Source of the DNA: a virus
Direction: 5' to 3' (one strand)
IMG/VR virus record: IMGVR_UViG_3300036770_006776
Coordinates: 1 to 48,564 of that record
Length of the DNA stretch: 48,564 bases
Of this stretch, positions 4,626-48,526 are shown one piece after another; the first letter of the stretch is position 1, and every line of letters starts with the position of its first letter. Position numbers and translations under genes: made by a program. The notes beneath the pieces were generated by a model that saw only the letters and a list, made by a program, of their open reading frames with translations, was not told where the DNA came from and searched no databases.

Positions 4626-4626
4626 T

Positions 4627-32353: not shown

Positions 32354-34366
32354 ATGAACGACTTAATGGACGACGAAGACAAAATGATGAGTAAAAAACA
32401 GAAGTCAGGAGATACCTCGACACCTGTGCTAGACAATTTCAGTAGAGACTTGAATAAACTTGCAGAGGCGGGTAAATTGGACCCTGTCATCGGAAGAGAC
32501 CGAGAGATTCTACGAATCGCTCAAATTCTTTCCCGAAGAAAGAAAAATAACCCAATTATTCTTGGTGAACCTGGTTGTGGTAAGACCGCAATCGTTGAAG
32601 GTTTGGCAATGAAAATTGTTAATGGTGATTGTCCTCGTAATCTCTTGGATAAGAGATTGGTTAACCTTGACCTAACTTCAGTTGTTGCCGGTACAAAGTA
32701 TCGTGGACAATTTGAAGAAAGAATGAAGGTTATCATTGAAGAACTTCAAGCTAATCCTAACATCATCGTATTCATTGATGAGATTCATACGTTGGTTGGT
32801 TCAGGTAATTCCTCAGGTTCGATGGATGGTTCCAACATTTTCAAACCAGCATTGGCACGTGGTGAACTACAAGTAATCGGTGCAACCACTTTGGATGAAT
32901 TCAGAAAGAACATCGAAAAAGATGGGGCATTGGAACGTAGATTCCAAAAAGTCATTGTTGACCCATCTACAGTGACTGAGACAATCCAAATTTTGAAAAA
33001 TGTTCGGGACAAATACGAAACATATCACAAAGTGACTTATTCCGATGAAGTCATTGAAACTTGTGTTAAGTTGGCGGATAGATATATCACCGACCGTGAA
33101 TTCCCTGACAAAGCATTCGACATCTTGGATGAAGTTGGAGCTAGAATGCAAACCGAACTTAAGGTTCCCGAAGCAATCGAAGAGTTGAAGCGTAAGGCTG
33201 CAGAGCTGAAACAACAGAAGTTGGATGTAGTTAAAAAACAGAATTACGAACAAGCGGCACAACTCAGAGACAAGGAAAAAAAGTTGTTGGACAAATTGGA
33301 ACAAGAAAAACAAAAGTTCGAGGAACAAATGTCCAAAGACAAACAAAAGGTCGGAATGGATGATGTTTATGATGTTGTTTCAAACATGACTAAAATCCCT
33401 GTTAACAAAATGTCTACAGATGATACCAAAGCGTTGTTGAACTTAGATAAACACATTGTTGGAACTGTCATTGGTCAGGATGCTGCGGTCATCAAGGTTG
33501 CAAAATCTATCAAGAGAAACCGACTTGGTATCAAAGATCCAAATCGTCCGATTGGTTCATTCGTTTTCTTGGGTTCAACTGGTGTTGGTAAAACTCACCT
33601 TGCAAAACAACTTGCAAAAGAAATGTTTGGAAGTGAGGACGCACTAATCCGTGTGGATATGTCTGAGTACCAAGAGAAACACACCGTATCCAAATTAGTT
33701 GGAGCTCCTCCAGGCTATGTTGGATATGAAGAAGGTGGGTTGTTGACTGAGAAAGTTAAGAACAAACCTTACTCTGTTATCTTGTTCGATGAGGTTGAGA
33801 AAGCTCACAAGGACGTATTCACGGTGTTACTACAAATCTTGGACGATGGTCACGTTACAGATAGTTTGGGTAGAAAGATTAATTTCAAAAACACTTTGAT
33901 TATCTTAACATCAAATCTTGGAGTTAAAAAACTACAGGACTTCGGGACTGGTATTGGATTCTCAAATAATACCTATAGTAACGAAGAAGCGAAGAAAGAT
34001 ATCTTGATGAAAGAAATGAAAAATTTCTTTTCTCCTGAGTTTATTAATCGTATCGATGACACCATCGTTTTCAATTCTCTATCTCAAGAGGATATCAAGA
34101 AAATCACTGACATCGAACTTAAGAAGTTGATGAATCGTCTTGACGAAATGAAGTATAAGATTACTTATGATGAATCACTTTTGAATTACCTATCAAAAAT
34201 CGGATATGATGAGGTATACGGTGCAAGACCACTCAAGAGAGCGATTCAGGATAAAGTTGAAGACTTATTATCTGAAGAAGTTCTGACCGACAAAATTATC
34301 GTAGGAAAAACCTACGTGATTAAAGTCGAAGATGAAGTAGTCAAAGTAGTCAAGAAAGGTCGGTAA
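32354..34366 (+). CDS. ClpC/ClpA-type AAA+ unfoldase lacking the N-domain
   Basis: 670 residues with two AAA+ modules. D1 has Walker [10 protein letters not shown] (71-79) and Walker [11 protein letters not shown] (about 138-147). Residues about 280-320 hold a UVR-like coiled segment. D2 has Walker A GSTGVGKT (407-414). The loop GIGF (533-536) matches the ClpP-docking IGF/VGF loop, so docking to host ClpP is possible. The usual N-terminal Clp_N repeats are absent; the protein starts about 50 residues before the D1 Walker A. It unfolds proteins, probably with ClpP and the divergent UVR protein. A terminator follows. Confidence 0.92.
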
Positions 34367-35017: not shown

Positions 35018-35851
35018 TCAAAACGGATGAAACTGTCCTCTTGGTACTGACTTTTTGAAATGTAATTTATAACCCAACTCTTCAATCATTTTTCTTCCCA
35101 TTTCTATACCGTTGAATACGTCCTCGATGATTACATATTCTTCAGGACTATGATAATCATAATAACCAATAGAAAAATTAATACAAGAAAAATCGAATTT
35201 ACTTCTCAAAGCATAAACGTCAGTATATGGGTGAACCATATATCGCATTTGTTCGGTAATCATTCCTTCAGTCAAAACTTTATCAATTTTTTCGAAGAAC
35301 TCGGTACCTCTGTCGAATAACACTTGCCCAAAACATGTCTCAGTAATCATCCAATTTTCCGGAGCATCGAACTGAATACCATATCCAACATTTTCAAAAA
35401 ATTTGGAATCGGCCGCTTTTGAACCATGGCATCCAGTTTCTTCTGAAACAAAGAATGCTGCTTTAAGGTATGGTAATTCTTTTAGTAAAGTTAAACAAGC
35501 AAACACTCCACACTTATCGTCTCCTCCAATACCTGTCGGCATCTCGTTATCATTGAATGCCTTTAACGCTGGTTTCAATTCCCCTTGAGCGTTTTTTAAC
35601 ATCATTTCTTTAACGTTGATTGTATCAATATGGTGAACTGTATCGGTATGCGATATTACACAAGGAAAATAAAAATCTTCGGGAAGTTCAGTTGTTTCTT
35701 TTTTGGTTGCGTAGATATTCATTTTGTCATCAACATAATGTTCTATATTGTTTTCGGTTAACCAATTAACCAAAAATTCAACCATACGATGTTCTTGGTA
35801 AGTTTTTGTGGGTACGCTCAAAACTTCTTTGAGTAACGTTATATCTTTCAT
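35018..35851 (-). CDS. M20-family metallopeptidase (PepT-like)
   Basis: 277 residues. The expected metal ligands can be placed: H68/D70 in ISHTDTVHH, D111 in GGDDKCG, E137-E138 in SEETGCHG, D162 in FDAPE, and H234 in YYDYHSPEE. This is the tripeptidase/aminopeptidase pattern. It is shorter than full-length PepT (about 400), with a reduced lid domain. It acts in the cytoplasm, probably recycling peptides from proteolysis; the ClpC and tmRNA neighbours fit. The box ahead of it combines TATTTAT and TATCTTTG. Confidence 0.87.
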   Translation of the reverse strand: MKDITLLKEVLSVPTKTYQEHRMVEFLVNWLTENNIEHYVDDKMNIYATKKETTELPEDFYFPCVISHTDTVHHIDTINVKEMMLKNAQGELKPALKAFNDNEMPTGIGGDDKCGVFACLTLLKELPYLKAAFFVSEETGCHGSKAADSKFFENVGYGIQFDAPENWMITETCFGQVLFDRGTEFFEKIDKVLTEGMITEQMRYMVHPYTDVYALRSKFDFSCINFSIGYYDYHSPEEYVIIEDVFNGIEMGRKMIEELGYKLHFKKSVPRGQFHPF

Positions 35852-35871: not shown

Positions 35872-36915
35872 TTAGATTTCATCCAAACTAAATAATGAAG
35901 GTTGGTATAATAAATTGTAAAAATTTTGTTCACTCATTAATATACTTTTTTGCTTCAATCCCTTTGATAATGTTACCACCACTTTCATCTCAGGAAACTT
36001 AAATCCTTCAATTTTGAACCTTGTTTCTTTTTTGGGGTCTTTTGGTAAAAAGTAGTATTCTTCTTGTCTGAATTTTTTCAAAATTCTAGAAGTCATGTCA
36101 GTGAAATCTTTGAAGCTAACTCCTTCCTCTTCTCCATCTTCCTGAATCGTATCCAAAATTTCAGTAAAAATTGTGTTTGCGGTTCTATTGAAACTTGCAG
36201 AATCAAAATCATCAGGGTCTTGGTATGCATAATAATCTTCTTGCCAACCACCTGGTGCTTGCTTTCTACCAAAAATTCTTTCTAATAATTCTTTCGAAGA
36301 AATGTGAAGGTCACCCTCGTTAATATATAATGCTATCAAGTCCGCCACCGTAATTCTAAATCCATCTGTATAAGCGTCGATACCCAACTCATCGAAATAC
36401 TCATCCATCTCTTTATTCATCGCGGTCGAAAGAGATCTTTGGAACGCGTGATTTTTTTCGTAGACATAATCTTCGATGACATACTTTATTTTTTTTCCAA
36501 AATTATCCATCAATACTCGGGATAACTCTTTTCTGTATTCGTCATCTGAAAAGTCGACTTTCATGGGAAGTATTGCTCTAGAAATTTCAGATAATATTTG
36601 TTTATTTTCGTCATCTAAAGTATAGTAAAAACTATACCCTTCCATAAAATCTTCTGTGGAGGAATAATGGTCTATAAATTCATAATCGTTATACGGGGAA
36701 TTAATCACTTGATAAAACCAAACATCATCTTCCGATAATCCCAACGCCTCTAAAAATTCTTGTTGATTTTTGAACTCAACACTTATAACACTTTGACCTG
36801 GCGTATTTCGGTCCTCTCTCATGTACGAGAATAAATCATCCGAAGATAATAATTCATCTTTAGTTATTTTTCTTTTAGCATAATTCCTTAATGATCTGAA
36901 AGTTTCGTAATTCAT
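35872..36915 (-). CDS. Hypothetical protein next to the protease genes
   Basis: 347 residues from the ATG at 36915; a TTG at 36933 would extend it by six residues, but the TATTTAT box lies there. It is acidic and aromatic-rich, mostly helical in the middle, with no signal peptide or membrane segment. The C-terminus (KVVVTLSKGLKQKSILM) is beta-rich. It is transcribed in the same direction as the M20 peptidase and ends 20 nt before it. No domain recognised. Confidence 0.6.
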   Translation of the reverse strand: MNYETFRSLRNYAKRKITKDELLSSDDLFSYMREDRNTPGQSVISVEFKNQQEFLEALGLSEDDVWFYQVINSPYNDYEFIDHYSSTEDFMEGYSFYYTLDDENKQILSEISRAILPMKVDFSDDEYRKELSRVLMDNFGKKIKYVIEDYVYEKNHAFQRSLSTAMNKEMDEYFDELGIDAYTDGFRITVADLIALYINEGDLHISSKELLERIFGRKQAPGGWQEDYYAYQDPDDFDSASFNRTANTIFTEILDTIQEDGEEEGVSFKDFTDMTSRILKKFRQEEYYFLPKDPKKETRFKIEGFKFPEMKVVVTLSKGLKQKSILMSEQNFYNLLYQPSLFSLDEI

Positions 36916-36922
36916 ACTACAA

Positions 36923-36929
36923 ATAAATA
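36923..36929 (-). promoter_or_regulatory. TATTTAT late-promoter-like box
   Basis: Minus-strand TGATATTTATTTG, 7 nt before the ATG at 36915. It lies back to back with the tmRNA promoter on the plus strand. Confidence 0.5.
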
Positions 36930-36938
36930 TCAATTCTG

Positions 36939-36978: not shown

Positions 36979-37390
36979 GGGGTAGACAGGTATCGATTGG
37001 CATTGTTGGGGATAAGTGGCACGTAGTCAGAATTCATCTATGACTTAAATCTATGGTGAAGAAAGTAAACGGCAATACTCTTGCTAAGATGTCTGCTCTA
37101 GGTTTAACTAGAGAAGCGTCTGTTGTAACTGCTTAATTAGTTGATACAACGTCAGGTCGAATGGGCATATAACCTAGGAACAGAAGCCCTCTAAGGTGTG
37201 ATACCACCCGAAGCGTATCGAAGGTCACGTTCAGAGGACTACCTTAGTATAAGTGAACTCGACACAGTTGTTGGTAACGATGTCAAAATAGGAACCAAAT
37301 ATTTCGGAAGGTATAACAAACCTTGACCTAAACGTGTAGTCATTTATTGTCAAGGTGAGCAAGACCGGAGTTCGACTCTCCGCTACTCCA
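36979..37390 (+). ncRNA. ssrA: Transfer-messenger RNA (tmRNA) with unusual tag region
   Basis: About 412 nt, starting GGGGUAG at 36979 and ending with its partner CUACUCC plus discriminator A (CC then U follow, so CCA is not fully encoded). The T-arm CGGAG-TTCGACT-CTCCG is at about 37373-37383. Two tag frames are possible. One starts at GGT 37055 and reads GEESKRQYSC before TAA; it begins like Bacteroidetes tags (GE...). The other, from 37053, is 27 codons ending ASVVTA. A 6-bp hairpin (37096-37113) just after the shorter frame fits the helix that normally follows the tag. The resume codon was not determined. Trans-translation rescues stalled ribosomes. Confidence 0.88.
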
Positions 37391-37400
37391 CCTTCAACAA

Positions 37401-37428: not shown

Positions 37429-37506
37429 TTTTCGAACTTGACAATTAACATAAACTTAATATTTTTAATTAAAATTTTTAATACTTATCAGTAACTTCAT
37501 AATATT

Positions 37507-37560
37507 ATGAAAAAAAATTATTATAACCTTACCACAAATAATTTTCCACAAGAAAAATAA
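37507..37560 (+). CDS. Possible 17-residue leader peptide
   Basis: ATG to TAA gives 17 residues (MKKNYYNLTTNNFPQEK), with 5 of 17 Asn/Tyr. The stop is immediately followed by a hairpin and T-run, and then the long receptor gene. This order (tiny ORF, terminator, large gene) is what attenuation leaders look like. The coding call is weak on its own. Confidence 0.4.
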   Translation: MKKNYYNLTTNNFPQEK

Positions 37561-37562
37561 GT

Positions 37563-37595
37563 TCCCGCGTATTGATTTACTCGGGATTTTTTTTT
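37563..37595 (+). terminator. Candidate attenuator upstream of the receptor gene
   Basis: Stem TCCCG / CGGGA (14-nt loop) followed by nine T, starting 3 nt after the 17-codon ORF and 41 nt before the receptor ATG. A strong terminator here would reduce receptor transcription unless relieved. Confidence 0.7.
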
Positions 37596-37635
37596 ATAAA
37601 TAAACAATCAAATAAATAACAAAAAAACAAAAACA

Positions 37636-40600
37636 ATGAAAAAAAATCTATTACAAGGGGTTTTATCATTCTTGGTTTTACTGATGTCGTTTGGACTGAC
37701 GTATTCTCAAGGGGTAACAACATCAAACATTTCAGGTAAAGTTGCAACCGATACGGGTGAGACATTACCAGGGGCGTTAGTACTAGCTACTCACACTCCA
37801 TCGGGAACAAAATATTCTACAGTCACTAATAATGAAGGAAGATATTTAATTCCAAACACAAGGATTGGTGGTCCTTACACAATCACTGTATCATTCATAG
37901 GATATAGTACATCATCTACTGATGGAGTATTTTTATCTTTGGGTGTTACTTCAAATATCAATATCCAACTTAAGTCAGAAGATATTGGTATTGCGGAAGT
38001 ACTTGTAATGGGAGATAAAAATCCAGTATTTAGCTCCGATAGAACTGGTGCGTCTTCTGCAATTACAAATCAAAACTTAACTAGATTACCAACCATTTCA
38101 AGAAGTATCAATGATTTTACAAGGTTATCACCACAAGCATCAGGTAACTCTTTTGCAGGACAGGATGGTAGATTGAATAATATTACTGTTGATGGTTCTT
38201 ATTTTAACAACTCATTCGGTTTGGGTTCAGGTTCTAATCCAGGTGGTAGAACAGGTGTATCTCCAATCTCTTTGGATGCTATTGACCAAATCTCAATTAA
38301 CGTAGCACCTTATGATGTAAGACAAGGTAACTTCGTTGGTGCTGGTGTAAACACAGTAACTCGTTCGGGTACTAACGAACTATCTGGTTCGGTTTATGGG
38401 TTTAGTAGAAACAACAATTTAGTTGGAACTGAAGCAGGTGAAAAGAAATTTAATCCTGGGCAATTTGATTACAAACAATTCGGTTTCCGTTTAGGTGGAC
38501 CAATCATTAAGGATAAATTATTCTTCTTTGGTTCATTTGAAGATGAAAAAACTACTCAACCAGGAACTACTTTTAGAGCAAACAAAGGTGGAGAACCTGC
38601 GTCTGGTAATGTTACAAGAGTATTGGCTTCTGATTTAGACCAATTGAGTTCATTCTTAAAAACCAAATATGGATATGAGACAGGACCTTATCAGGGATAC
38701 GATAACACTACCGCAGCTACCAAGTTTTTGGGTAAGATTGACTGGAACATTAGTGATAAAAACAAATTTAGTTTAAGATATACACATTTGGACTCTAATA
38801 CCGATGTTCTTGCATCTGGTTCATCTTCATTAGGTTTTGGTGGAAGAAACTTTAACCTTAACGCACTTAACTTCCAAAATTCAAATTACATTATCAACGA
38901 AAACATCCGTTCAATTGTAGGTGAATTGAATAGTAGATTATCCGATAAAGTTACAAACAACTTTATTATTGGATACACTTATCAGGATGAGTCACGAGGT
39001 TCGAGAGGTGATTTCTTTCCGTTGGTGGATATTCTTAAAGATGGAGCAACTTACACCACTTTTGGTTTTGAGGCTTTCACTCCAAGCAACGAATTGAGAT
39101 ACAAGACGTTCCAAATCCAAAACAACTTACAAATCTTTAGAGATAGAAGTACTTGGACATTTGGTGGTAGTTATGAAAAATATCAATCTGAAAACGTGTT
39201 CTTTCCAGGTTCCCAATCCGCTTATGTATTTAACTCTTTAGAAGATTTTTACGCATCTGCAGGTGGAAATGAGGATATCACACTCCGAAGATTTCAGGTT
39301 AGATACAACAACATTCCTGGTCAAGAAAAACCAGTACAACCACTTTCAGTTGATTACTTTGGTTTGTATGGACAGAATGAATTGAGAGTTAGTGATAACT
39401 TTACAACTACACTTGGATTGAGAGTTGATGTACCCATCTTTGGTGAGACTGGATTTAGAAATACCGAAGTTGAAGGTATGAACTTTGTTGACGCAGATGG
39501 TAATACTACAAAGTATAGAACTGATAAACTACCTGATGCAAATCTATTGTGGTCTCCACGAGTTGGTTTTAACTATGATGTAAAAGGTGATAAGACCCTT
39601 CAATTAAGAGGTGGTACCGGTATCTTTACTGGTAGACCTGCGTATGTATGGGTATCCAATCAAATCGGTAACAACGGTATCCTAACTGGATTTGAGAGAT
39701 TGGATAATACTAAATCAAGACCTTTTTCACCTGATCCAGAAACTTATAAACCACAAGATGTGACAGGTGCTCCGGCTAAAAACTATGAATTGGCGCTAAG
39801 TGATACAGATTTTAAGTTTCCACAAGTATGGAGAACGAACATCGCGGTTGATAAGAAACTACCTGGCGGAATTATCGGTACAGCTGAATTCATTTACTCA
39901 AAAGATGTAAATGGAGTATCTTACCACAACGCAAACCTTGCTCCATCTAACGGAGTATTTGCAGGACCAGACCAGAGAGTAAGATGGGTTGGTGGAAACA
40001 CAGCAACAAGAATTAATGGTAAGATTGATAATGCTGTAACTTTGGGTAACCAAGCAATCGGTTCATCTTATGTAGCATCCGTTTCTTTGGAAAAACCATT
40101 TACTAATGGATTGTACGCAAAAGCAGCATACTCTTATGGTATTACCGAAAACACAGTTGATGCAGGTTCAATCGCATTCGGTTCTTGGAATAACAGACCT
40201 CATAGTGGAAACCCGAATAATAATGAATTAGGATTATCCTCAAACTCAATGGGACATAGAGTATTTACTGCATTGAGTTACTCTAAAGATTTCTTCTCAT
40301 TCGGTAATACATCCGTTGGTTTGTTTTGGGAAGGTAGAACTATCGGTAACTACTCTTATGTATATGGCGGTGACTTGAATGGAGATGGTGGATTTTCTAA
40401 TGATTTGATTTACATTCACAAAGATAAGAGTGAAATGAGATTTGTACCATTCACATCTTCAGGAAAATCATTCACTGCGGAAGAACAAGCATCCGCATGG
40501 GAAGCGTTTATCCTACAAGATAAATACCTAAGTGCAAATAGAGGTTCAGTAGCGGAAAGAGGAGCGGCATTCTTACCTATGGTATTCCGTGCTGATTTCA

Positions 40601-40884
40601 ACTTTACCCAACAACTATTCACCAACATCGGTGGTAAGAGAAATACCTTAGAGTTTAGAGCAGATGTTCTAAATGTTGGTAACCTATTGAATAGTGCATG
40701 GGGTGTTGGACAATTTGTAACATCTACTTCACCATTAGTTCCAGCAGGAACAACTTCAAGTGGTGAACCACAATTCAGATTAAGAAATCTTGGTAATCAA
40801 TTGATTACACAAACATTTCAACCAACCGTTGGTGTAGGAGATGTTTGGAGAGCTCAATTTGGATTGAGATATAGTTTTAATTAA
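37636..40884 (+). CDS. Oar-like TonB-dependent outer-membrane receptor
   Basis: 1082 residues, full length. There is a signal peptide (MKK then hydrophobic core, about residues 1-25), a carboxypeptidase-regulatory-like repeat (about 28-115, SGKVATDTGETLPGALV), and a plug with NNITVDGSYFNNSFG and AIDQISINVAPYDVRQG (about 180-225). A long 22-strand type barrel with many Gly/Asn/Tyr/Phe turns follows, ending in an aromatic strand (QFGLRYSFN) as porin-type C-termini do. Oar/TonB receptors are bacterial surface proteins; one on a phage is very unusual. It would be inserted in the host outer membrane, perhaps for uptake, superinfection exclusion or receptor masking. It has its own upstream leader and terminator. 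Confidence 0.93.
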   Translation: MKKNLLQGVLSFLVLLMSFGLTYSQGVTTSNISGKVATDTGETLPGALVLATHTPSGTKYSTVTNNEGRYLIPNTRIGGPYTITVSFIGYSTSSTDGVFLSLGVTSNINIQLKSEDIGIAEVLVMGDKNPVFSSDRTGASSAITNQNLTRLPTISRSINDFTRLSPQASGNSFAGQDGRLNNITVDGSYFNNSFGLGSGSNPGGRTGVSPISLDAIDQISINVAPYDVRQGNFVGAGVNTVTRSGTNELSGSVYGFSRNNNLVGTEAGEKKFNPGQFDYKQFGFRLGGPIIKDKLFFFGSFEDEKTTQPGTTFRANKGGEPASGNVTRVLASDLDQLSSFLKTKYGYETGPYQGYDNTTAATKFLGKIDWNISDKNKFSLRYTHLDSNTDVLASGSSSLGFGGRNFNLNALNFQNSNYIINENIRSIVGELNSRLSDKVTNNFIIGYTYQDESRGSRGDFFPLVDILKDGATYTTFGFEAFTPSNELRYKTFQIQNNLQIFRDRSTWTFGGSYEKYQSENVFFPGSQSAYVFNSLEDFYASAGGNEDITLRRFQVRYNNIPGQEKPVQPLSVDYFGLYGQNELRVSDNFTTTLGLRVDVPIFGETGFRNTEVEGMNFVDADGNTTKYRTDKLPDANLLWSPRVGFNYDVKGDKTLQLRGGTGIFTGRPAYVWVSNQIGNNGILTGFERLDNTKSRPFSPDPETYKPQDVTGAPAKNYELALSDTDFKFPQVWRTNIAVDKKLPGGIIGTAEFIYSKDVNGVSYHNANLAPSNGVFAGPDQRVRWVGGNTATRINGKIDNAVTLGNQAIGSSYVASVSLEKPFTNGLYAKAAYSYGITENTVDAGSIAFGSWNNRPHSGNPNNNELGLSSNSMGHRVFTALSYSKDFFSFGNTSVGLFWEGRTIGNYSYVYGGDLNGDGGFSNDLIYIHKDKSEMRFVPFTSSGKSFTAEEQASAWEAFILQDKYLSANRGSVAERGAAFLPMVFRADFNFTQQLFTNIGGKRNTLEFRADVLNVGNLLNSAWGVGQFVTSTSPLVPAGTTSSGEPQFRLRNLGNQLITQTFQPTVGVGDVWRAQFGLRYSFN

Positions 40885-40891
40885 AAATTAA

Positions 40892-40922
40892 AAATCCCTC
40901 GAATATTCGGGGGATTTTTTTT
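40892..40922 (+). terminator. Terminator of the receptor gene
   Basis: Stem AAATCCCTC / GGGGGATTT around GAATATTC, 8 nt after the stop, followed by eight T. Confidence 0.88.
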
Positions 40923-40933: not shown

Positions 40934-41281
40934 ATGGATATAACCAAAATACTACTAGCCACCCTCTTTATGATTTTAGGACAAATTGGGTCTTTTATGC
41001 AATTACAAGGGTCAATTAAATATGGTTGGTCGGAAAAATACCTTTGGTTACTTCTACTGTCAGGAATTCCAATCAGTTATTTATATATAAAGTCTGTAAA
41101 TCTTTACGTACAAGGTTTTGGTGGCCAGATCTGGCCAAGCAGATTGGTTGGGTTTGCATTAGGTGTTGTAATATTTACAATATTGTCTTCAGTTCTTTTT
41201 CAAGAACACCTGAACCTCAAAACGGTCATAAGTTTAGTTCTTGCATTCACTATTGTTGGAATACAAATATTTTGGAAATGA
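40934..41281 (+). CDS. Small four-helix membrane protein (DMT/SMR-like)
   Basis: 115 residues with four hydrophobic segments at about 5-25, 36-53, 70-88 and 95-113, separated by short loops with KYGWSEKY and a QIWPSR turn. The size and layout resemble small multidrug-resistance/DMT membrane proteins. It could move small molecules or act as a phage membrane factor. It overlaps the next gene by 4 nt (ATGA). Confidence 0.65.
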   Translation: MDITKILLATLFMILGQIGSFMQLQGSIKYGWSEKYLWLLLLSGIPISYLYIKSVNLYVQGFGGQIWPSRLVGFALGVVIFTILSSVLFQEHLNLKTVISLVLAFTIVGIQIFWK

Positions 41282-41883
41282 AAGTAATATTCTTAGATAA
41301 CGATGGAGTTATCTGTTTAAGTAGTAATTGGGGTTCCCGTCACAAAAAACAAAAAAAGTGGGGTGGAAGGAAACTATCCATGTCTATATCATCTATTCCT
41401 GTAGAATATCGTTTCGATAATTTTGACAAAAAGGCGGTAAAAGTTCTAAATCAAATATTAGAAACCACAGGTGCTGAAATCGTGGTTAGTTCTGATTGGA
41501 GATTACATGCCACTTTGGAAGAATTGGGAGAATACTATACATCTCAAGGTGTCATCAAAAAACCAATCGGATTTACCGAAATATTTCACTACAAAAATTG
41601 GTTGGAAGAAGGTAGAATTCCTTCCGATTTTGATTGGAACAGAACTGACGGTCGAGAACAAGAAAGACACTTTGAGATTAAAGATTGGTTGAAATCACAT
41701 CCCGAAGTTACACATTGGGTAGCCGTTGATGACCTTCATATGGGCATTCATGTTACAAACAGCTCTTATGGTCCATTTGACAGAGATTGGGGGTTAGAAC
41801 ACTTCGTATGGACACCTAGAATGTGGGAGGGTATTAAACAAAGTGGAATTAAACAAAAAATAATAAAACATTTATTATGCTAG
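41278..41883 (+). CDS. HAD-like phosphatase, RNA-repair (Swiss-Army-Knife) type
   Basis: 201 residues from the ATG at 41278 (a much longer frame begins upstream, but its N-terminus is the membrane gene read in the wrong frame). It has FLDNDGVI (about 4-11), VVSSDWR (about 70-76) and WVAVDDLHM (about 147-155), the HAD motif set including the trailing acidic pair. This matches the HAD domain found in Swiss-Army-Knife RNA repair proteins. A 5' or 3' phosphatase role on RNA is plausible. It overlaps both neighbours. Confidence 0.75.
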   Translation: MKVIFLDNDGVICLSSNWGSRHKKQKKWGGRKLSMSISSIPVEYRFDNFDKKAVKVLNQILETTGAEIVVSSDWRLHATLEELGEYYTSQGVIKKPIGFTEIFHYKNWLEEGRIPSDFDWNRTDGREQERHFEIKDWLKSHPEVTHWVAVDDLHMGIHVTNSSYGPFDRDWGLEHFVWTPRMWEGIKQSGIKQKIIKHLLC

Positions 41884-42445: not shown

Positions 42446-43153
42446 ATGAGTATCGAAAAAAATATTTTTAGAATTTTAGAAGAGATTAAGAAATCGGAAG
42501 AACTTATATCAGAAGCCATCATTTTGAGTGAATCGAGCACCTTTTCACCACCCCTTAATAAACTTAAAGTGACCTCTGGTTTCGGCCCAAGATGGGGAAA
42601 ACATCATGATGGAGTTGATTTAGCGGCAGTGGACGAACCAGTCAAATCTCTCGCAGATGGAGTTGTAGTTACAACTCATCCCGATAAATATCCTTGTGGA
42701 GGAACCATTGTCATTCAACACTCAAATGGATATACCACAGGTTTTTGTCATATGCAAAAAATAAACGTACAAGTTGGACAAAATGTAAAAAAGGGAGATA
42801 TAATCGGAATCACTGGAGGTGGCAAAAATGATCCAGGTAAAGGTAGAAGTGATGGGAAACACTTACATTTGACTATAAGAAAAGACGGAAAACCTTTAGA
42901 CCCTATGAAATTCATAGATAAAGAAGGTGTATTAGTTGGTACAGTACCTATATCACCAATATCTGGTACTGACGTATCAACTGATTCAACATCAAGTTCG
43001 GACAGTAAAGGTACCGCACCGGAATTTGGAATTGCTGACTTTGATTTCTTAACGGGAAATATTAAAGGGAATATTGCCGATTTTGATTTTATTAAAGGAA
43101 TTAAAGAACGAAAAATTTCGGAAAATATAGAAAGAATAAAAAAAATGTTATAA
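42446..43153 (+). CDS. M23 (LytM) peptidoglycan endopeptidase, tagged
   Basis: 235 residues. The metal site is complete: H54-x3-D58 (GKHHDGVDLAA) and H139-x-H141 (GKHLHLTI), with GDII and the surrounding beta-strand pattern. It cuts peptide crosslinks in the cell wall, for entry or lysis. The first 30 residues (IFRILEEIKKSEELI) are an amphipathic helix and not a signal peptide, which fits a virion-packaged tag rather than export. The C-terminal end has two copies of a short ADFDF motif. It is a candidate for the missing lysozyme function of the hub protein. Confidence 0.88.
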   Translation: MSIEKNIFRILEEIKKSEELISEAIILSESSTFSPPLNKLKVTSGFGPRWGKHHDGVDLAAVDEPVKSLADGVVVTTHPDKYPCGGTIVIQHSNGYTTGFCHMQKINVQVGQNVKKGDIIGITGGGKNDPGKGRSDGKHLHLTIRKDGKPLDPMKFIDKEGVLVGTVPISPISGTDVSTDSTSSSDSKGTAPEFGIADFDFLTGNIKGNIADFDFIKGIKERKISENIERIKKML

Positions 43154-43843: not shown

Positions 43844-43844
43844 G

Positions 43845-43918
43845 TTGGGATAGGTGGACTCGAACCACCAACCTTTCGCGTATCAGACGAATGCTCTAAC
43901 CAATTGAGCTATATCCCA
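43845..43918 (-). tRNA. tRNA-Ile (GAU)
   Basis: All four arms fold. The acceptor pairs TGGGATA/TATCCCA with discriminator A; the anticodon stem is TTCGT/GCGAA with loop CTGATAC (anticodon GAU). The T-arm is standard (TTCGAGT). CCA is not encoded. Confidence 0.93.
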
Positions 43919-43934
43919 TTATTGTAAGTAAAAG

Positions 43935-44008
43935 AGCGGGTAGTGAGATTCGAACTCACAACTTCCGACTTGGAAGGACGGCACTCTAGCCAATTGAGCT
44001 ATACCCGC
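43935..44008 (-). tRNA. tRNA-Gly (UCC)
   Basis: Acceptor GCGGGTA/TACCCGC, D-arm GCTC/GAGT, anticodon stem with one mismatch and loop CTTCCAA (anticodon UCC), T-arm GTGAG-TTCGAAT-CTCAC. Confidence 0.9.
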
Positions 44009-44017
44009 TTTTTTGTG

Positions 44018-44168
44018 CTGTAAGAGGTGGATTCGAACCACCACGAGGAGATTCAACAAATAACATATCGCCGGCCGGCTGGTGGTCTACCCCCTCATAT
44101 TATTTGTCTATTTCTTAATCCCCACCCCCGAGACAGGAGGGCTTGTCTGCCAATTTCAACACCTTACA
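44018..44168 (-). tRNA. Atypical tRNA (GUC-like) with a giant variable arm
   Basis: About 151 nt. Acceptor TGTAAGG/TCTTACA pairs, the D-stem TTG/CAA and T-arm GGTGG-TTCGAAT-CCACC are normal, and an anticodon arm CCCTC-CTGTCTC-GGGGG reads GUC (Asp). The variable region is about 85 nt instead of 4-20, and folds as a long arm: GGGGAT/ATCTCC at its base, then ACAAATAA/TTATTTGT, with a GCCGGCCGGC palindrome inside. D-loop spacing resembles Leu/Ser-type tRNAs. It might be a long-variable tRNA or a tRNA-like RNA; an intron is not excluded. Confidence 0.55.
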
Positions 44169-44173
44169 AAATG

Positions 44174-44258
44174 CAGAGAGTATTGGATTCGAACCAATGC
44201 ATCCCTTTCGAGATGACAGATTAGCAATCTGCTCCTTTAACCACTCAGGCAACTCTCT
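44174..44258 (-). tRNA. tRNA-Ser (GCU)
   Basis: Type II tRNA of 85 nt. Acceptor AGAGAGT/ACTCTCT, loop TTGCTAA (anticodon GCU), a normal variable arm (CATCTCGAAAGGGATG), T-loop TTCGAAT. Confidence 0.93.
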
Positions 44259-44266
44259 ATTAATGT

Positions 44267-44297
44267 TCCAAAACTCACTTTTTTTTAATGTTTTGGA
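44267..44297 (-). other. Intercistronic hairpin in the tRNA cluster
   Basis: Perfect 8-bp stem TCCAAAAC / GTTTTGGA with a 15-nt A/T loop between Ser and Gln tRNA genes. It may be a processing or stability element. Confidence 0.5.
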
Positions 44298-44311
44298 CCC
44301 TGAATAACTTG

Positions 44312-44382
44312 ATGTCTCATCAGGATTCGAACCTGAAATAACTGAACCAAAATCAGTTGTGTTACCGTTACACCATGAGACA
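44312..44382 (-). tRNA. tRNA-Gln (UUG)
   Basis: Acceptor TGTCTCA/TGAGACA; D-arm GTGT/ACAC; anticodon stem ACTGA/TCAGT with loop TTTTGGT (anticodon UUG); T-arm TCAGG-TTCGAAT-CCTGA. Confidence 0.92.
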
Positions 44383-44386
44383 GTTT

Positions 44387-44461
44387 AGACAGACCTTAGG
44401 AGACGTATTATTCTCTTCATTATCCTTGTACTTTAACACCGTGGGAAGCGTGTGTCTGTCT
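44387..44461 (-). ncRNA. tRNA-sized stem-closed spacer element
   Basis: About 75 nt closed by a perfect 8-bp stem AGACAGAC / GTCTGTCT. It lies between Gln and Tyr tRNA genes, has no TTCGA T-loop, and holds internal hairpins. It may be a structured spacer or a degenerate tRNA. Confidence 0.4.
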
Positions 44462-44463
44462 TG

Positions 44464-44545
44464 TGGGAACGATAGGACTCGAACCTATGAACTCCGAAGA
44501 GAGGGGTTTTACAGACCCCGGCAATTGCCGCTATGCGACGTTCCC
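44464..44545 (-). tRNA. tRNA-Tyr (GUA)
   Basis: Type II tRNA of 82 nt. Acceptor GGGAACG/CGTTCCC, anticodon arm GGGGT-CTGTAAA-ACCCC (anticodon GUA), short variable arm, T-loop TTCGAGT. Confidence 0.93.
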
Positions 44546-44554
44546 AAAATAAGG

Positions 44555-44587
44555 AAAGGAGAAGATGGTTCCGTGGACATCTCCTTT
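44555..44587 (-). other. Intercistronic hairpin
   Basis: Stem AAAGGAG / CTCCTTT extended by GATG/CATC (one small bulge), between Tyr and Trp tRNA genes. Like the other spacers, it may guide RNA processing. The rest of the 44588-44681 gap shows nothing clear. Confidence 0.4.
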
Positions 44588-44681
44588 TACGATTGGCATT
44601 ACTACGATGATTCCAAACTCCAAATGTACCACCTCCATCATCAGGTTAACATACATTCCTTCCCCAATCAACCTTTATAAC

Positions 44682-44756
44682 TAGCACACCCACCAAGACT
44701 CGAACTTGGAACAACGGTTTTGGAGACCGGTATGATGCCATTTCACCATAGATGCT
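44682..44756 (-). tRNA. tRNA-Trp (CCA)
   Basis: Anticodon arm GGT-CTCCAAA-ACC (anticodon CCA) is clear and the T-arm CCAAG-TTCGAGT-CTTGG is normal. The acceptor pairs imperfectly (mismatch/bulge near position 6), so this copy is divergent. The 5' A lies on the last base of the preceding gene's stop codon. Confidence 0.75.
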
Positions 44757-45172
44757 TACTTGTTCAACAACCAAGATGACGATTGAATTTTATCTCCTAG
44801 TCCATCAATTAATTTAACCCCTAACCAATCACAAATCGGTGTCTCAGGGATGCTATTATTGTTTTGGTCTCCACCATTAGCGAATAGGAATTCGTCGTCC
44901 CTATCCCCCAAAGAATGAATCAATTCGATTGTCTTACACACAGTTCGATCTGTGTCAACTGAAAGAAATACTCTGTCAACCATTTTCAGATTTTGGATGA
45001 TTAACATTCTCTCATTCTCATCTTGGAATTCTTTACTACCCTTCAACTCCCTCTGTTTGTCATTGTTGACAATGACATAGAGTTTGTCACCATGTTCTTT
45101 GGACTTATTGAAATATTCAATATGTCCCTTATGAACAGGATTAAAATATCCGCTTACAATTACAATTTTCAT
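44756..45172 (-). CDS. Cytidylyltransferase-like nucleotidyltransferase
   Basis: 138 residues. The N-terminal strand and HxGH motif (GYFNPVHKGHIEY, H14/H17) define the cytidylyltransferase/NMN-adenylyltransferase-like superfamily. The pattern matches glycerol-3-phosphate cytidylyltransferase or RfaE-type enzymes; the ISSSxxR-type end appears altered (QSSSWLLNK). It activates a small molecule such as a sugar phosphate or cofactor. The stop overlaps the tRNA-Trp 5' end; the start overlaps the next gene by 4 nt. A link to the sugar genes at the left end is possible but not shown. Confidence 0.78.
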   Translation of the reverse strand: MKIVIVSGYFNPVHKGHIEYFNKSKEHGDKLYVIVNNDKQRELKGSKEFQDENERMLIIQNLKMVDRVFLSVDTDRTVCKTIELIHSLGDRDDEFLFANGGDQNNNSIPETPICDWLGVKLIDGLGDKIQSSSWLLNK

Positions 45173-45357
45173 TTCGTTTCGTAGGTTAAAGTTTCTAATT
45201 CCAATTCACTTTCATAGAAATATGGACAAGCCCACCTAGGTTTATCACATTTAAGTTTTACCATCGATCCTCTGTAAAATCCAACCGCTACGACTGTCGC
45301 CCATCCTGAACATCTTGTTTTAACTCTATCTCCAACTTTTAATTCACTAAATGTCAT
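45169..45357 (-). CDS. Small beta-barrel-like protein
   Basis: 62 residues, with SELKVGDRVKTRCSGWATVVAV, suggesting an SH3-like beta-barrel of KOW/SH3 type, and several aromatic residues. It overlaps both neighbours, so it is translated with them. It may bind nucleic acid or cell-wall material. No certain family. Confidence 0.6.
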   Translation of the reverse strand: MTFSELKVGDRVKTRCSGWATVVAVGFYRGSMVKLKCDKPRWACPYFYESELELETLTYETK

Positions 45358-45655
45358 CTTCTACGGTGTTTAATTCAAAGTTACTAAATTTTAGTCCCCA
45401 CATCAAAGAAATCATAGACATTTCTCTTTCAGCCATTTTAGCATACAAACGAAGTTCTTTCATAAGGTATTTTTTACCCCACTTTTTCCATTCTTCGTTT
45501 TGTTCCATAGTCATAGTCCAATCAGTATACCAACTATCCTTACGGTCCTTGATATCGTCATAGGTCACAGGATGACCTGCAATTTCGAACATCTTGTTTA
45601 TCATATCGATAACCATTTTTTGTTTTTTCTGTTCTTTAGATAATCTTGGTTTCAT
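45347..45655 (-). CDS. Hypothetical helical protein
   Basis: 102 residues, Lys/Glu/Met-rich, mainly helical. It is the first gene of the trio ending in the nucleotidyltransferase and overlaps the next start by 11 nt. A tRNA-Cys gene lies about 26 nt upstream of its start. No motif recognised. Confidence 0.58.
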   Translation of the reverse strand: MKPRLSKEQKKQKMVIDMINKMFEIAGHPVTYDDIKDRKDSWYTDWTMTMEQNEEWKKWGKKYLMKELRLYAKMAEREMSMISLMWGLKFSNFELNTVEDDI

Positions 45656-45680
45656 AATTTTCTTTGTTTATTGGTTGATG

Positions 45681-45754
45681 AGGTCAGAATCGGATTCGAA
45701 CCGATGGATACTTGTTTTGCAGACAAGCCCCTTAAGCCACTTGGGTATCTGACC
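45681..45754 (-). tRNA. tRNA-Cys (GCA)
   Basis: Acceptor GGTCAGA/TCTGACC, anticodon arm CTTGT-CTGCAAA-ACAAG (anticodon GCA), T-arm ATCGG-TTCGAAT-CCGAT. All arms pair. Confidence 0.93.
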
Positions 45755-45763
45755 ATTTATAAT

Positions 45764-45831
45764 GTGTCAGGACGGGTTTCTAACCCGCTCCTCAGTTAAC
45801 TACTGTGTGCTGCCATTTACACCACCTGACT
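45764..45831 (-). tRNA. Divergent tRNA-Asn-like gene (GUU), short
   Basis: 68 nt. Starts AGTCAGGTGGTG, as the tRNA-like family does, and D-arm GTGT/GCAC is fine. The anticodon arm CAG-TAGTTAA-CTG would read GUU but lacks the usual U33 (A there). The T-loop is TTAGAAA instead of TTCGAAA, and acceptor position 1-72 mispairs. It could be degenerate or a special tRNA. Confidence 0.5.
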
Positions 45832-45835
45832 ATTG

Positions 45836-45907
45836 TGTGACCGAAGAGAATCGAACTCTTACCTGAAGTGCCACAAACTTCCGCCCTCCCACTAGGCTAC
45901 GGCCACC
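45836..45907 (-). tRNA. tRNA-His (GUG)
   Basis: Acceptor GTGGCCG/CGGTCAC fully pairs; a G precedes position 1 as required of His tRNA; anticodon arm GAAGT-TTGTGGC-ACTTC (anticodon GUG); T-loop TTCGATT. Confidence 0.92.
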
Positions 45908-45978
45908 ATATAATAATTTAGATTTCTAAAACTCATCCTCGAAAGGGTAAAGAAACTCCATCTTATTTGTTTTTTGCG

Positions 45979-46125
45979 TAGTCAGGACAGGATTCGAACC
46001 TGTATTTGTGGAGCACCATCTCCAACGTCTGAATCGAACAGAACCAATCAATCCTCTACGGGTGGTACATCTGCAGCTGTACCACTTATTCAAGAACAGC
46101 GTCTAACCAATTCCGCCACCTGACT
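45979..46125 (-). ncRNA. Long tRNA-like RNA, copy 1 (147 nt)
   Basis: Begins AGTCAGGTGGCGGAATTGGT and ends CAGGTTCGAATCCTGTCCTGACT: a standard acceptor, D-arm and T-arm shared with four other copies. The middle, about 100 nt, is different in each. Here it contains a perfect 8-bp hairpin GTGGTACA/TGTACCAC and a second TTCGATT T-loop-like arm, plus TGGAG/CTCCA. It is much longer than a tRNA, with no clear anticodon arm. Confidence 0.6.
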
Positions 46126-46132
46126 ATCCTAA

Positions 46133-46339
46133 TTATTTACCTCCTCCGTCACCATCAAGATATATCAATCTTACTGTTTCACCACTACCTATATTATGAA
46201 TAGTAAAGGTAGGATATGAACCGTCTTCATTTCTTTTGTTAATAGTGTCAGTTGGCCAAATTTCAAAACCATGTTCCCAACACAGATGGTCTAATTTATC
46301 AATAAACTCATCAGTTTCTTTACTTATTTCTTTTTCCAT
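46133..46339 (-). CDS. Small acidic protein
   Basis: 68 residues, acidic, with a Gly/Asp-rich C-terminal end (DGDGGGK). The context AAAAGTTATG at the start is repeated before several neighbours. It lies 7 nt after the tRNA-like RNA and precedes a 33-codon gene. Function unknown. Confidence 0.6.
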   Translation of the reverse strand: MEKEISKETDEFIDKLDHLCWEHGFEIWPTDTINKRNEDGSYPTFTIHNIGSGETVRLIYLDGDGGGK

Positions 46340-46348
46340 AACTTTTAA

Positions 46349-46450
46349 TTACAAAAGTCTATACCAAATCTTAATTGTCATATCTCTTTGAGGGGATGGT
46401 TTTAGTTTTGACCATCTGTCAATCCATTCTTTAATTTCTTCTTTACTCAT
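46349..46450 (-). CDS. 33-residue micro-protein
   Basis: ATG at 46450 to TAA at 46349 gives 33 residues, charged with several Trp and Arg (KEWIDRWSKLKPSP-like). The start context is the same AAAAGTTATG used by its neighbours. It is probably a real small gene, but the length leaves doubt. Confidence 0.45.
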   Translation of the reverse strand: MSKEEIKEWIDRWSKLKPSPQRDMTIKIWYRLL

Positions 46451-46465
46451 AACTTTTAATTTTTT

Positions 46466-46483
46466 CACCTGACTATCCTAATT
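46466..46483 (-). other. Truncated tRNA-like 5' end
   Basis: Minus-strand ATAGTCAGGTG with flanking AATTAGG matches the 5' end of the tRNA-like copies but has no D-arm, T-arm or 3' end. The stop codon of the adjacent micro-gene lies inside it. Confidence 0.55.
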
Positions 46484-46610
46484 TCCACCACCTACCACAT
46501 TTTTGACATTCTTGTGGTCCATATGCTTTATGCATTTTATGTTTATCTAAAACAAAATCATGTACAAATAAACACCATACGTTTCCAAATTGTCTAATAA
46601 TCCATTTCAT
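46473..46610 (-). CDS. 45-residue zinc-ribbon-like micro-protein
   Basis: ATG at 46610. 45 residues, with C35-x2-C38 (PQECQKCGRWWK) and C13 plus His residues, resembling half of a zinc ribbon. The stop TAG forms part of a truncated tRNA-like 5' end (TAGTCAGG). The start is preceded by an A-rich run, not a Shine-Dalgarno sequence. Probably expressed, but short. Confidence 0.5.
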   Translation of the reverse strand: MKWIIRQFGNVWCLFVHDFVLDKHKMHKAYGPQECQKCGRWWKLG

Positions 46611-46621
46611 ATATTTTTTAA

Positions 46622-46786
46622 TTAAAATATAATACTTAATAAATGACCTATAAAAATACCTGTTGCTAAGGCTGATAACGATAGACTTACAAGTGTTTTT
46701 TTAGATAAATCTTTAATAAATGATGGTAGTATCCAGCTTGATATTAATACTAACCATCCCACAATTACAGCAATTTCTATTTCCAT
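46622..46786 (-). CDS. 54-residue two-helix membrane micro-protein
   Basis: ATG at 46786. 54 residues: helix one residues about 5-24 (IAVIVGWLVLISSWIL), a charged loop (KDLSKK), helix two residues about 32-53. No signal cleavage expected. The start context AAAAGTTATG recurs in this region. A phage membrane factor (for example lysis or exclusion) is possible. Confidence 0.55.
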   Translation of the reverse strand: MEIEIAVIVGWLVLISSWILPSFIKDLSKKTLVSLSLSALATGIFIGHLLSIIF

Positions 46787-46804
46787 AACTTTTATTTTTA
46801 GTTG

Positions 46805-46882
46805 TAGTCAGGACAGGATTCGAACCTGTGATAGACGCTCCTTAGAGTCCGCTATCATGGCAACCAATTCCGCCACCTGACT
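46805..46882 (-). ncRNA. tRNA-like RNA, copy 2 (78 nt)
   Basis: Same 5' and 3' ends as copy 1 (AGTCAGGTGGCGG and CAGGTTCGAATCCTGTCCTGACT). The D-arm is changed (GGC/GCC) and the middle forms one long hairpin, GATAG-CG-CTC-TAAG-GAG-CG-CTATC, in place of separate anticodon and variable arms. No 7-nt anticodon loop with U33 could be placed. Confidence 0.55.
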
Positions 46883-46905
46883 ATGTTGAGAATGAGAAGT
46901 CCTCT

Positions 46906-46986
46906 GTGTTGTAGTGCACGATTATGTTTTCCATAATTCAAGTAATGTCACTCATCTTTATGTCTCCTTTCTCAAGGGTACAACAC
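46906..46986 (-). ncRNA. Stem-closed leader element, copy 1
   Basis: 81 nt closed by a perfect 8-bp stem GTGTTGTA / TACAACAC, located 5' of tRNA-like copy 2. It contains a TTGAGAA/TTCTCA-type pairing. The bases next to copies 2 and 3 are near identical (CTCTGTGTTGT region). Confidence 0.4.
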
Positions 46987-46991
46987 ATTTG

Positions 46992-47111
46992 TAGTCAGGA
47001 CAGGATTCGAACCTGTACGAAGAGTATGTGTGTCTCTTCTCCTATGGGTTTACCTCAAGGGTTTCCACCTGCCATCGCACGTTGTAGCGTCTACCATTCC
47101 GCCACCTGACT
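46992..47111 (-). ncRNA. tRNA-like RNA, copy 3 (120 nt)
   Basis: Same acceptor, D-arm (GCG/CGC) and T-arm as copy 1. The middle has a GAAGAG/CTCTTC hairpin next to the T-arm, plus unpaired or weakly paired sequence. No convincing anticodon arm. Confidence 0.58.
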
Positions 47112-47134
47112 ATGTTGAGGATGAGAAGTCCTCT

Positions 47135-47194
47135 GTGTTGTAGAGTTTGTTTACTCTCTTATATGATAGCATTTCTTTCTCAAGGAAACAACAC
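47135..47194 (-). ncRNA. Stem-closed leader element, copy 2
   Basis: About 60 nt closed by a 7-bp stem GTGTTGT / ACAACAC, 5' of tRNA-like copy 3. It shares flanking sequence with leader copy 1. Confidence 0.4.
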
Positions 47195-47247
47195 GTTGTA
47201 ATGGAGTGGGTCTATTCCCCACAGTCAACAGAACTTAAAACTTACCT

Positions 47248-47321
47248 ACGAGAGAGAGGTATTCTGTATGATCGTTCCCATTGCCTAAACAGTGTCTAGT
47301 ATGCCTTCGGTTGTCTCTCGT
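47248..47321 (-). ncRNA. tRNA-sized stem-closed element
   Basis: 74 nt closed by 8 bp (ACGAGAGA / TCTCTCGT), with an internal CTAGA-TTTAG hairpin and no T-loop. It lies between leader copy 2 and tRNA-like copy 4. A further small hairpin GTGGG-GAATAGA-CCCAC lies at about 47207-47223. No gene is apparent in 47195-47326. Confidence 0.35.
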
Positions 47322-47326
47322 GTCAG

Positions 47327-47465
47327 TAGTCAGGACAGGATTCGAACCTGTATGCACTATTAAGGTAATGCTTTTGTATGTTTTTCAGTGTCCACTACAA
47401 GTTTCCTTAATTTTGTAGTAACTACTTTCATCCTCACATAACGTCTACCATTCCGCCACCTGACT
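47327..47465 (-). ncRNA. tRNA-like RNA, copy 4 (139 nt)
   Basis: Same 5' half and 3' T-arm/acceptor as the other copies. The middle includes an ACTACAA/TTGTAGT stem and a GTAG-TTA-CTAC hairpin. Much longer than a tRNA. No clear anticodon. Confidence 0.58.
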
Positions 47466-47497
47466 AAATTACTTGTTTTCGATTATCAAGTTGATAG

Positions 47498-47821
47498 TTA
47501 CAATTCGTAACGAGCCAATGCTGCGTCTGTGATTTCCTTTGCTTTTTTACAAATCAACACATCTTCTGAATAAATATGATAAATTGAATCAGCTCCCAAT
47601 TCGCTGAGTAATTGTGTTAACGCAACTGCGTATAATTCAATATCGTCAGCCGTGTGAGACGAAGCAACTTCGCTTCTTGACATATTTCCGAAAACTTTAG
47701 AATGAGATCGTAAGTAATCGTGATGATATGTATATGGAACTCGGCTTTTGCTATGTGGCAATTTATCAATTACTTCTAGAAACCGTTGAGGCAATGTACT
47801 ATCTTCTTCTTTTCTGAACAT
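47498..47821 (-). CDS. Hypothetical protein
   Basis: 107 residues. Basic first half with His/Tyr/Ser (YHHDYLRSHSKVFGNMS), then an acidic helical region and a basic end. A truncated tRNA-like 5' end lies in its leader. No motif recognised. Confidence 0.58.
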   Translation of the reverse strand: MFRKEEDSTLPQRFLEVIDKLPHSKSRVPYTYHHDYLRSHSKVFGNMSRSEVASSHTADDIELYAVALTQLLSELGADSIYHIYSEDVLICKKAKEITDAALARYEL

Positions 47822-47850
47822 ATTTTCCCCTATTTAGATATTACTATTTC

Positions 47851-47864
47851 ACCACCTGACTATT
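47851..47864 (-). other. Second truncated tRNA-like 5' end
   Basis: Minus-strand ATAGTCAGGTGGTG, matching the first bases of the tRNA-like family (and of the Asn-like copy), just upstream of the gene at 47821. No T-arm or acceptor 3' half is nearby. Confidence 0.5.
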
Positions 47865-47865
47865 T

Positions 47866-48075
47866 TTATTTTTCCAAAACGTACTTCATCATCTCTTGCA
47901 TCTTGATAATCAAAAGTTCCATTTCATCCTTATTAAGATACAACCTACCGTTTAATGTTTTATCATCCAACTCTTTGACTTCAACGATGATACCACCGAA
48001 ACACTCAGTTGGATAAATTTCAACATTCTGTTCTTCGGTCGCAATAACTGTTTTGTTCCAAACTTTGTTTTTCAT
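47866..48075 (-). CDS. Small beta-rich hypothetical protein
   Basis: 69 residues: KTVIATEEQNVEIYPTECFGG, then beta-rich acidic sequence and a C-terminal helix rich in Met/Glu. No motif. Its ATG lies 3 nt after the upstream gene's stop, so they are translated together. Confidence 0.6.
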   Translation of the reverse strand: MKNKVWNKTVIATEEQNVEIYPTECFGGIIVEVKELDDKTLNGRLYLNKDEMELLIIKMQEMMKYVLEK

Positions 48076-48078
48076 AAC

Positions 48079-48348
48079 TTATTTATTTTTGAATTGTTCA
48101 AACCATTGTTCTAATGTTATCTTCTTTCCTGCTAACAAATCTTCTGTATGCTTATAAAGTATATTTAATACTTCTTCCTCGCTATACATTTTTTCTTGTT
48201 GTAATCTAGCAATGTGAATAAACATTGATTTTATCCAAGTTTTTTCGTGAGGCTGTATTGTTTTTGCTTCTAATAACTCTAAGCTATAATTTTCAGCTGC
48301 TTCCTCAAGCTTGAATGCTTGTTCGTAAGGAATAAATTCGGTTTTCAT
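48079..48348 (-). CDS. Small helical hypothetical protein
   Basis: 89 residues, charged and helical throughout (EEAAENYSLELLEAK, then EEEVLNILYKHTEDLL). No domain recognised. It precedes the gene ending at 47866 and lies about 100 nt downstream of the tRNA-Lys gene. The leader between them forms a TTTTAC-ATCC/GGAT-GTAAAA hairpin. Confidence 0.6.
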   Translation of the reverse strand: MKTEFIPYEQAFKLEEAAENYSLELLEAKTIQPHEKTWIKSMFIHIARLQQEKMYSEEEVLNILYKHTEDLLAGKKITLEQWFEQFKNK

Positions 48349-48452
48349 TTCTCTTTACAGTTTAAGTTTCTCTCTTATTACTCCACTAATGTCCGAAAAA
48401 GATTTTACATCCACAAGGGATTTGTAAAATATTTTATTTTTTTTTTTGGTAG

Positions 48453-48526
48453 TGACCCCGCCGAGATTCGAACTCGGGACTCCTTCATTAAAAGTGAAGT
48501 GCTCTAGCCAACTGAGCTACGAAGTC
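48453..48526 (-). tRNA. tRNA-Lys (UUU)
   Basis: Acceptor GACTTCG/CGGGGTC (G-U pairs), anticodon arm CTTCA-CTTTTAA-TGAAG (anticodon UUU), T-arm CCGAG-TTCGAAT-CTCGG. Confidence 0.9.

Follow-up and report, generated by a model that had tools for sequence, protein, structure and literature searches.

The stretch of DNA analysed (the window, 48,564 bp, from a viral record) carries a gene for an Oar-type TonB-dependent receptor among phage genes. The genes and features of the window are as follows.

1960–2694: PhoH gene
15622–17412: major capsid gene
19494–20210: protease gene
21684–23534: portal gene
23571–25331: terminase gene
35872–36933, minus strand: gene for a 353-aa phage protein, conserved left flank of the receptor site
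36979–37393, plus strand: tmRNA gene (Rfam E 1.2e-26), left border of the site
37445–37461, plus strand: PHO-box-like direct repeat TTAACA-TAAAC-TTAATA (12/12), 191 bp upstream of the Oar gene
37507–37560, plus strand: possible leader ORF, MKKNYYNLTTNNFPQEK*; similar-sized ORFs precede five other phage receptor genes
37562–37595, plus strand: hairpin resembling a terminator, with a T-run, within the leader (RNA fold z −2.8)
37591–37598, plus strand: TTTTTATA, a one-mismatch copy of the phage's TATTTATA motif, overlapping the leader hairpin/T-run
37599–37635, plus strand: A-rich leader just before the start codon, resembling the leader of the major capsid gene
37636–40884, plus strand: gene for the Oar-type TonB-dependent receptor, 1082 aa (signal peptide, CarboxypepD_reg domain, plug and β-barrel)
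37996–38013, plus strand: TonB-box-like segment EVLVMG (residues 121–126), between the N-terminal domain and the plug
40890–40919, plus strand: terminator-like hairpin after the receptor gene
40934–41281, plus strand: gene for a 115-aa small membrane protein, conserved right flank
41287–41883, plus strand: HAD-family phage gene, conserved right flank

The receptor gene started with ATG and had no internal stop codons. Pfam placed a CarboxypepD_reg domain at residues 32–113 (1.7e-18) and OMP_b-brl_4 at residues 241–1020 (6.9e-49). The N-terminus, MKKNLLQGVLSFLVLLMSFGLTYSQ, is hydrophobic and looks like a signal peptide, and the C-terminus, FGLRYSFN, agreed with those of host Oars. An AlphaFold model, built from a 45-row alignment of window and locus sequences, had a mean pLDDT of 87.5 and a pTM of 0.83, and a Foldseek search with this model returned TonB-dependent transporters, FusA being the best (E 4.7e-35) and YddB also being found. 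The N-terminal CarboxypepD_reg domain, the plug and a large β-barrel were all present by Pfam and AlphaFold/Foldseek. EVLVMG aligned with EVV(I/V)MG or similar segments of host receptors, and residues 118–128 around it had low pLDDT and were flexible or disordered in the model; this segment may be the TonB box of the receptor. No PHROGs family was found for the receptor, and Pfam detected no SusD domain to make up a SusC/SusD pair. The uninterrupted ORF, the Pfam domains, the transporter fold and the capsid-to-terminase genes bore out the preliminary description of the locus, that of a complete Oar-type receptor with a normal C-terminus on a phage genome.

Phage genome and junctions of the receptor gene

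The nearest relatives of the window's phage were T4-like phages, including Flavobacterium phage immuto; these relatives and the capsid, protease, portal and terminase genes identified it as a T4-like phage. It infects freshwater Bacteroidota. The whole window was contained without a mismatch in a 169,854-bp contig, IMGVR_UViG_3300035670_010555 (designated G001), of which it formed positions 89123–137686 (window position 1 being 89,123). Since G001 might derive from a related assembly, two independent contigs from other metagenomes, G006 and G009, were taken as stronger evidence, and both had an Oar gene (71%) flanked on both sides by the same phage genes. Chimerism was excluded by the exact containment in G001 together with the presence of Oar at the same site in G006 and G009. 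A chimeric junction at the edges of the receptor gene, a concern raised beforehand, was looked for and not found, the flanks being shared with relatives. Both junctions of the window's Oar were spanned, and this gene of host origin lies in a genuine phage genome.

The receptor site in related phages

The site bounded by the 353-aa gene and tmRNA on one side and by the gene for the 115-aa membrane protein on the other is a cargo hotspot. The tmRNA gene, correctly noted upstream of the receptor in the preliminary description, was detected by Rfam and not by ARAGORN, and also adjoined the site in G009 and G027. At this site, G002, G005, G012 and G022 carried a gene for an 825–833-aa TonB receptor (designated TBDR2; OMP_b-brl_3, PF14905; Plug, PF07715; CarbopepD_reg_2 or CarboxypepD_reg), followed by one for a ~400-aa lipoprotein. 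Both TBDR2 with lipoprotein and Oar were found in G006 and G009, and neither in G026. Other occupants were a 1020-aa protein of a further Oar type (L408), a third receptor family, TBDR3 (L432), and a small outer-membrane protein (L443). Among 55 site-spanning loci, which were picked by similarity to the window and included some near-duplicates, 5 had an Oar-type receptor, 13 had TBDR2 with the lipoprotein (two of them with Oar too) and 39 had neither.

The supposition that phages rarely carry such receptors was wrong for this clade: TBDR2 was found in at least 103 IMG/VR viral contigs. Matches to human-gut ‘Bacteriophage sp.’ fragments (MT83...) were left out of the evidence. The lipoprotein gene adjoined TBDR2 in 67 of the 81 loci listed, most exceptions being cut by contig ends, and the pair was also present in the 635-kb phage LR745206. 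A search of PDB by sequence gave nothing useful for Oar or the lipoprotein, and a fold search was needed. The lipoprotein was modelled as a β-helix (pLDDT 87), not a SusD; its PDB fold matches, to β-helices of pectate and alginate lyases, were weak (best E 0.009), and for this reason no enzyme activity is claimed.

TBDR2 (e.g. in L303–L310) occurred in ~827-aa and ~750-aa forms, the short form being without most of the N-terminal domain. In another phage (L003, positions 1–5795), an Oar gene (68–70%) was located elsewhere than the hotspot; the genes beside it encode a clamp-loader subunit, GroES and an enzyme resembling IMP dehydrogenase/GMP reductase. In the window, a gene for a 670-aa ClpA/B-type AAA+ protease ATPase (32354–34366), 84–99% conserved across relatives, adjoined the hotspot.

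Origin of and selection on the phage Oars

The window's Oar was 65–73% identical to cellular copies of Algoriphagus and YHN15. In a tree of 29 phage and cellular Oars, it was sister to that of Cyclobacteriaceae YHN15 (support 100/98), the Oars of G006, G009 and G040 formed a clade inside the Algoriphagus group, and those of L345, L327, L342 and G027 formed a third, deep clade. A single phage-Oar clade was rejected (AU p 7.6e-50). By this tree, which requires at least three changes, the phage Oars are polyphyletic, pointing to at least three separate captures; topology alone fits gain or loss, gain by phages being the simpler direction in the two nested groups. Judged in the same way, the source of the window's Oar is a Cyclobacteriaceae-type host and not the flavobacteria that had been named before. 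The tree and the phage search also answered the earlier concern that the gene might be confined to one host genome, as phage copies of Oar exist elsewhere. Among the copies of G006, G009 and G040, dN/dS was 0.058–0.072, and by this estimate the phage Oars are under purifying selection and maintained in phages. GC3 of the window's Oar (0.247) was like that of its phage neighbours; host copies were higher (0.35–0.44).

The leader and promoter motifs

A leader like that at 37470–37635 of the window was also located upstream of the Oars of G006, G009, L441 and L327 and of TBDR3 of L432. Its ORF had 17–42 codons, mostly starting M(x)0–2N[YCF], and stopped at or within a terminator-like hairpin, with an A-rich stretch after it. 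This shared leader is a possible attenuator.

An unbiased motif search found TATTTAT[AC] upstream of 28 of 74 G001 genes (4.0 expected), many of them structural, and this motif is probably the late promoter of this phage group. It was exact before L441 Oar and L432 TBDR3, had one mismatch before the window's Oar, was likewise inexact before the Oars of G006, G009 and L327, and preceded 0 of 51 TBDR2 genes. The T4 late promoter TATAAATA, considered as a candidate at the Oar leader, was not enriched before G001 genes (5 against 5.5 expected). The Bacteroidota promoter element TAnnTTTG was found in 54 of 95 cellular Oar upstream sequences (5.4 expected) and in none of 10 from phage Oars. As an early host-type promoter for TBDR2 it was rejected, its occurrence (5/51 against 3.9) not being significant.

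A PHO-box-like repeat upstream of the receptor gene

TTAAYA-N5-TTAAYA, of which the element at 37445–37461 is a copy, is a direct repeat with an 11-bp period, the geometry of PhoB boxes. The motif was first read off sequences upstream of TBDR2 and was scored at a threshold of 11/12 or better. It was found in 54% of 46 non-redundant TBDR2 upstream sequences against 4% of shuffles, with a strong peak at spacer 5; this enrichment was not independent, because the motif was derived from the same set, whereas the test on Oar and TBDR3 was. Applied unchanged upstream of phage Oar and TBDR3 genes, the motif was found in 6 of 10 (0.38 expected), other spacers being at background. The window's copy was the sole exact match in the 169,854 bp of G001, both strands included, and ~374 kb of related phage segments gave one, in G027, located between tmRNA and Oar on the opposite strand. 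The repeat was absent before the Oars of G006, G009, L003 and L345 and before the nearest cellular ones, those of Algoriphagus and YHN15.

Among cellular Oars 16 of 95 had the repeat (1.3 expected), several of these being one Hymenobacter lineage and not independent; box-bearing Hymenobacter Oars adjoined a cysK-like gene, not phosphate genes. Two further cellular controls were weak: PhoX-family promoters (4/15 against 0.65 expected) and phytase-linked receptors (2/18 against 0.55). Pst/PhoX genes, sought in Cyclobacteriaceae as controls for the box, were not found. We regard the window's repeat as a putative PhoB site.

Comparison with known systems

The phoBR operon of F. johnsoniae encodes a TonB-dependent transporter, Fjoh_0545 (PF07715, PF13715 and PF14905), and a pectin-lyase-fold lipoprotein, Fjoh_0546, which were strongly induced at low phosphate, as was an orphan receptor with pf13620 only, Fjoh_3841 (PMC8115612). 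Fjoh_3841 could be Oar-like. Phage TBDR2 and its lipoprotein share the domain architecture of Fjoh_0545/0546; the latter are cellular, and the phage proteins were ~25–45% identical to the cellular copies examined. The window's phage, unlike its relatives with this pair, had no TBDR2 within its known 169.9 kb.

Megaphages Mar_Mega_1 and LR745206, the latter matching TBDR2 and its lipoprotein, have a putative SusC-like TonB receptor, which was proposed in 2021 to be an auxiliary metabolic gene for carbohydrate uptake (PMC9723777). That work mentioned one receptor in passing; the present phages have an Oar-type receptor, several captures into a single site, a lipoprotein paired with TBDR2 and a regulatory repeat, and these four features appear to be undescribed in the literature searched. 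Cellular Oars (those of Cyclobacteriaceae, and Myxococcus Oar as the studied member) had the same full-length domain order as the window's Oar; they often carry TAnnTTTG, whereas the phage Oar has instead a phage-type leader and the PHO-box-like repeat. Cyanophage phosphate genes pstS and phoA run under host PhoB. The logic proposed below, a phage nutrient gene under a host phosphate regulator, would be the same, but with an outer-membrane transporter, Bacteroidota and a putative regulator in place of a periplasmic binding protein and cyanobacteria.

Proposed role of the receptor

We propose, at about an even chance, that the phage has captured a working transporter into its cargo site for uptake of a scarce nutrient, most likely phosphorus, under a PhoBR switch. 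A Cyclobacteriaceae-type host gene would have entered the site; the host would make the receptor during infection, export it by Sec and BAM and energise it with its own TonB-ExbBD; uptake of the nutrient would increase, and the host PhoBR system would turn the gene on in low-phosphate water, in parallel to the use of pstS by cyanophages. The intact gene, predicted fold, phage context, independent captures, purifying selection and upstream repeat are the evidence for this role. Phosphorus uptake is the leading hypothesis because of the Fjoh_0545/0546-like architecture, Fjoh_3841 and the PHO-box-like repeat; we infer PhoB binding of the repeat, phosphorus as the cargo and a benefit of uptake to the phage. 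The PhoH gene at 1960–2694 also accords with this hypothesis. Some leaders have a late-type motif, and late expression would fit uptake less well. Of three roles suggested in the preliminary description, nutrient uptake gained specific support from the PHO-box-like element and a neighbour module like low-phosphate-induced proteins; superinfection exclusion and receptor replacement stayed at the level of plausibility.

That the receptor arose by chimeric assembly, is contaminating host DNA or is a neutral passenger is extremely improbable: its host-like sequence (73% to YHN15) would suit contamination, but the containment in the 169.9-kb contig and the same site with both flanks in contigs of other metagenomes are against a chimera, already refuted above, and repeated capture and strong constraint are against a neutral passenger. 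Uptake of a nutrient other than phosphorus (a metal complex, peptide or glycan), the repeat serving another OmpR-family regulator, is rather unlikely; it would accord with the siderophore and ferredoxin receptors among the fold neighbours, the cysK-like gene beside box-bearing Hymenobacter Oars, the weak support for the box from cellular low-phosphate promoters and the likeness of the partner lipoprotein to pectate/alginate lyase β-helices, but TBDR2 and its lipoprotein match a phoBR-operon pair induced only at low phosphate. TonB receptors are commonly used by phages as receptors, and unrelated outer-membrane proteins (TBDR2, L432 TBDR3 and the L443 small protein) use the same site, so a new surface receptor might titrate, mask or replace the receptor of competing phages. 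Such exclusion or receptor alteration is distinctly unlikely, as a decoy would need neither the plug, the TonB-box-like segment nor the host-like sequence that are kept, an extra host-type receptor would tend to raise adsorption, no blocking domain was present and selection was purifying, not diversifying.

Myxococcus xanthus Oar is required for secretion of the protease PopC (PMC6434023). This functional precedent counts against the uptake reading, and the window encodes peptidase-like proteins (M20/M42-like, 35018–35851; M23, 42446–43153), but export of a phage or host protein by the phage Oar is very unlikely: no cargo was conserved with Oar, and both peptidase genes occur in relatives without it. 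About as improbable is a receptor made with the virion proteins and acting late at the envelope (e.g. in lysis or progeny release). The exact TATTTAT[AC] motifs before L441 Oar and L432 TBDR3, the one-mismatch copy in the window and its capsid-like A-rich leader would agree with late synthesis; against this, the motif was inexact in the window, G006, G009 and L327 and absent before TBDR2, and we know of no late role for TonB receptors.

Extending phosphorus uptake to the whole T4-like Bacteroidota phage clade, we suggest tentatively, at somewhat less than an even chance, that exchangeable TonB receptors (Oar, TBDR2 with lipoprotein and others) occupy one tmRNA-side slot as a PhoBR-controlled phosphorus module, with a possible leader-peptide/terminator switch. 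If so, whole outer-membrane uptake systems would be carried by the phage. Most phage nutrient genes known so far act in the periplasm or the cytoplasm; in the present case the phages appear to provide the transporter of the outer membrane, and to do so repeatedly at one fixed position. Should the cargo be phosphorus, the evolution of freshwater Bacteroidota phages would be shaped by phosphate supply, much as in cyanophages. As phage copies move between cells, they could allow hosts to exchange transporters.

Other features of the window

At least nine tRNA genes were located on the minus strand at 43844–48526, with repeated spacer sequences. An overlapping pair of 143-bp direct repeats (17953–18224), 92% identical, was located within the ORF at 17453–19156.
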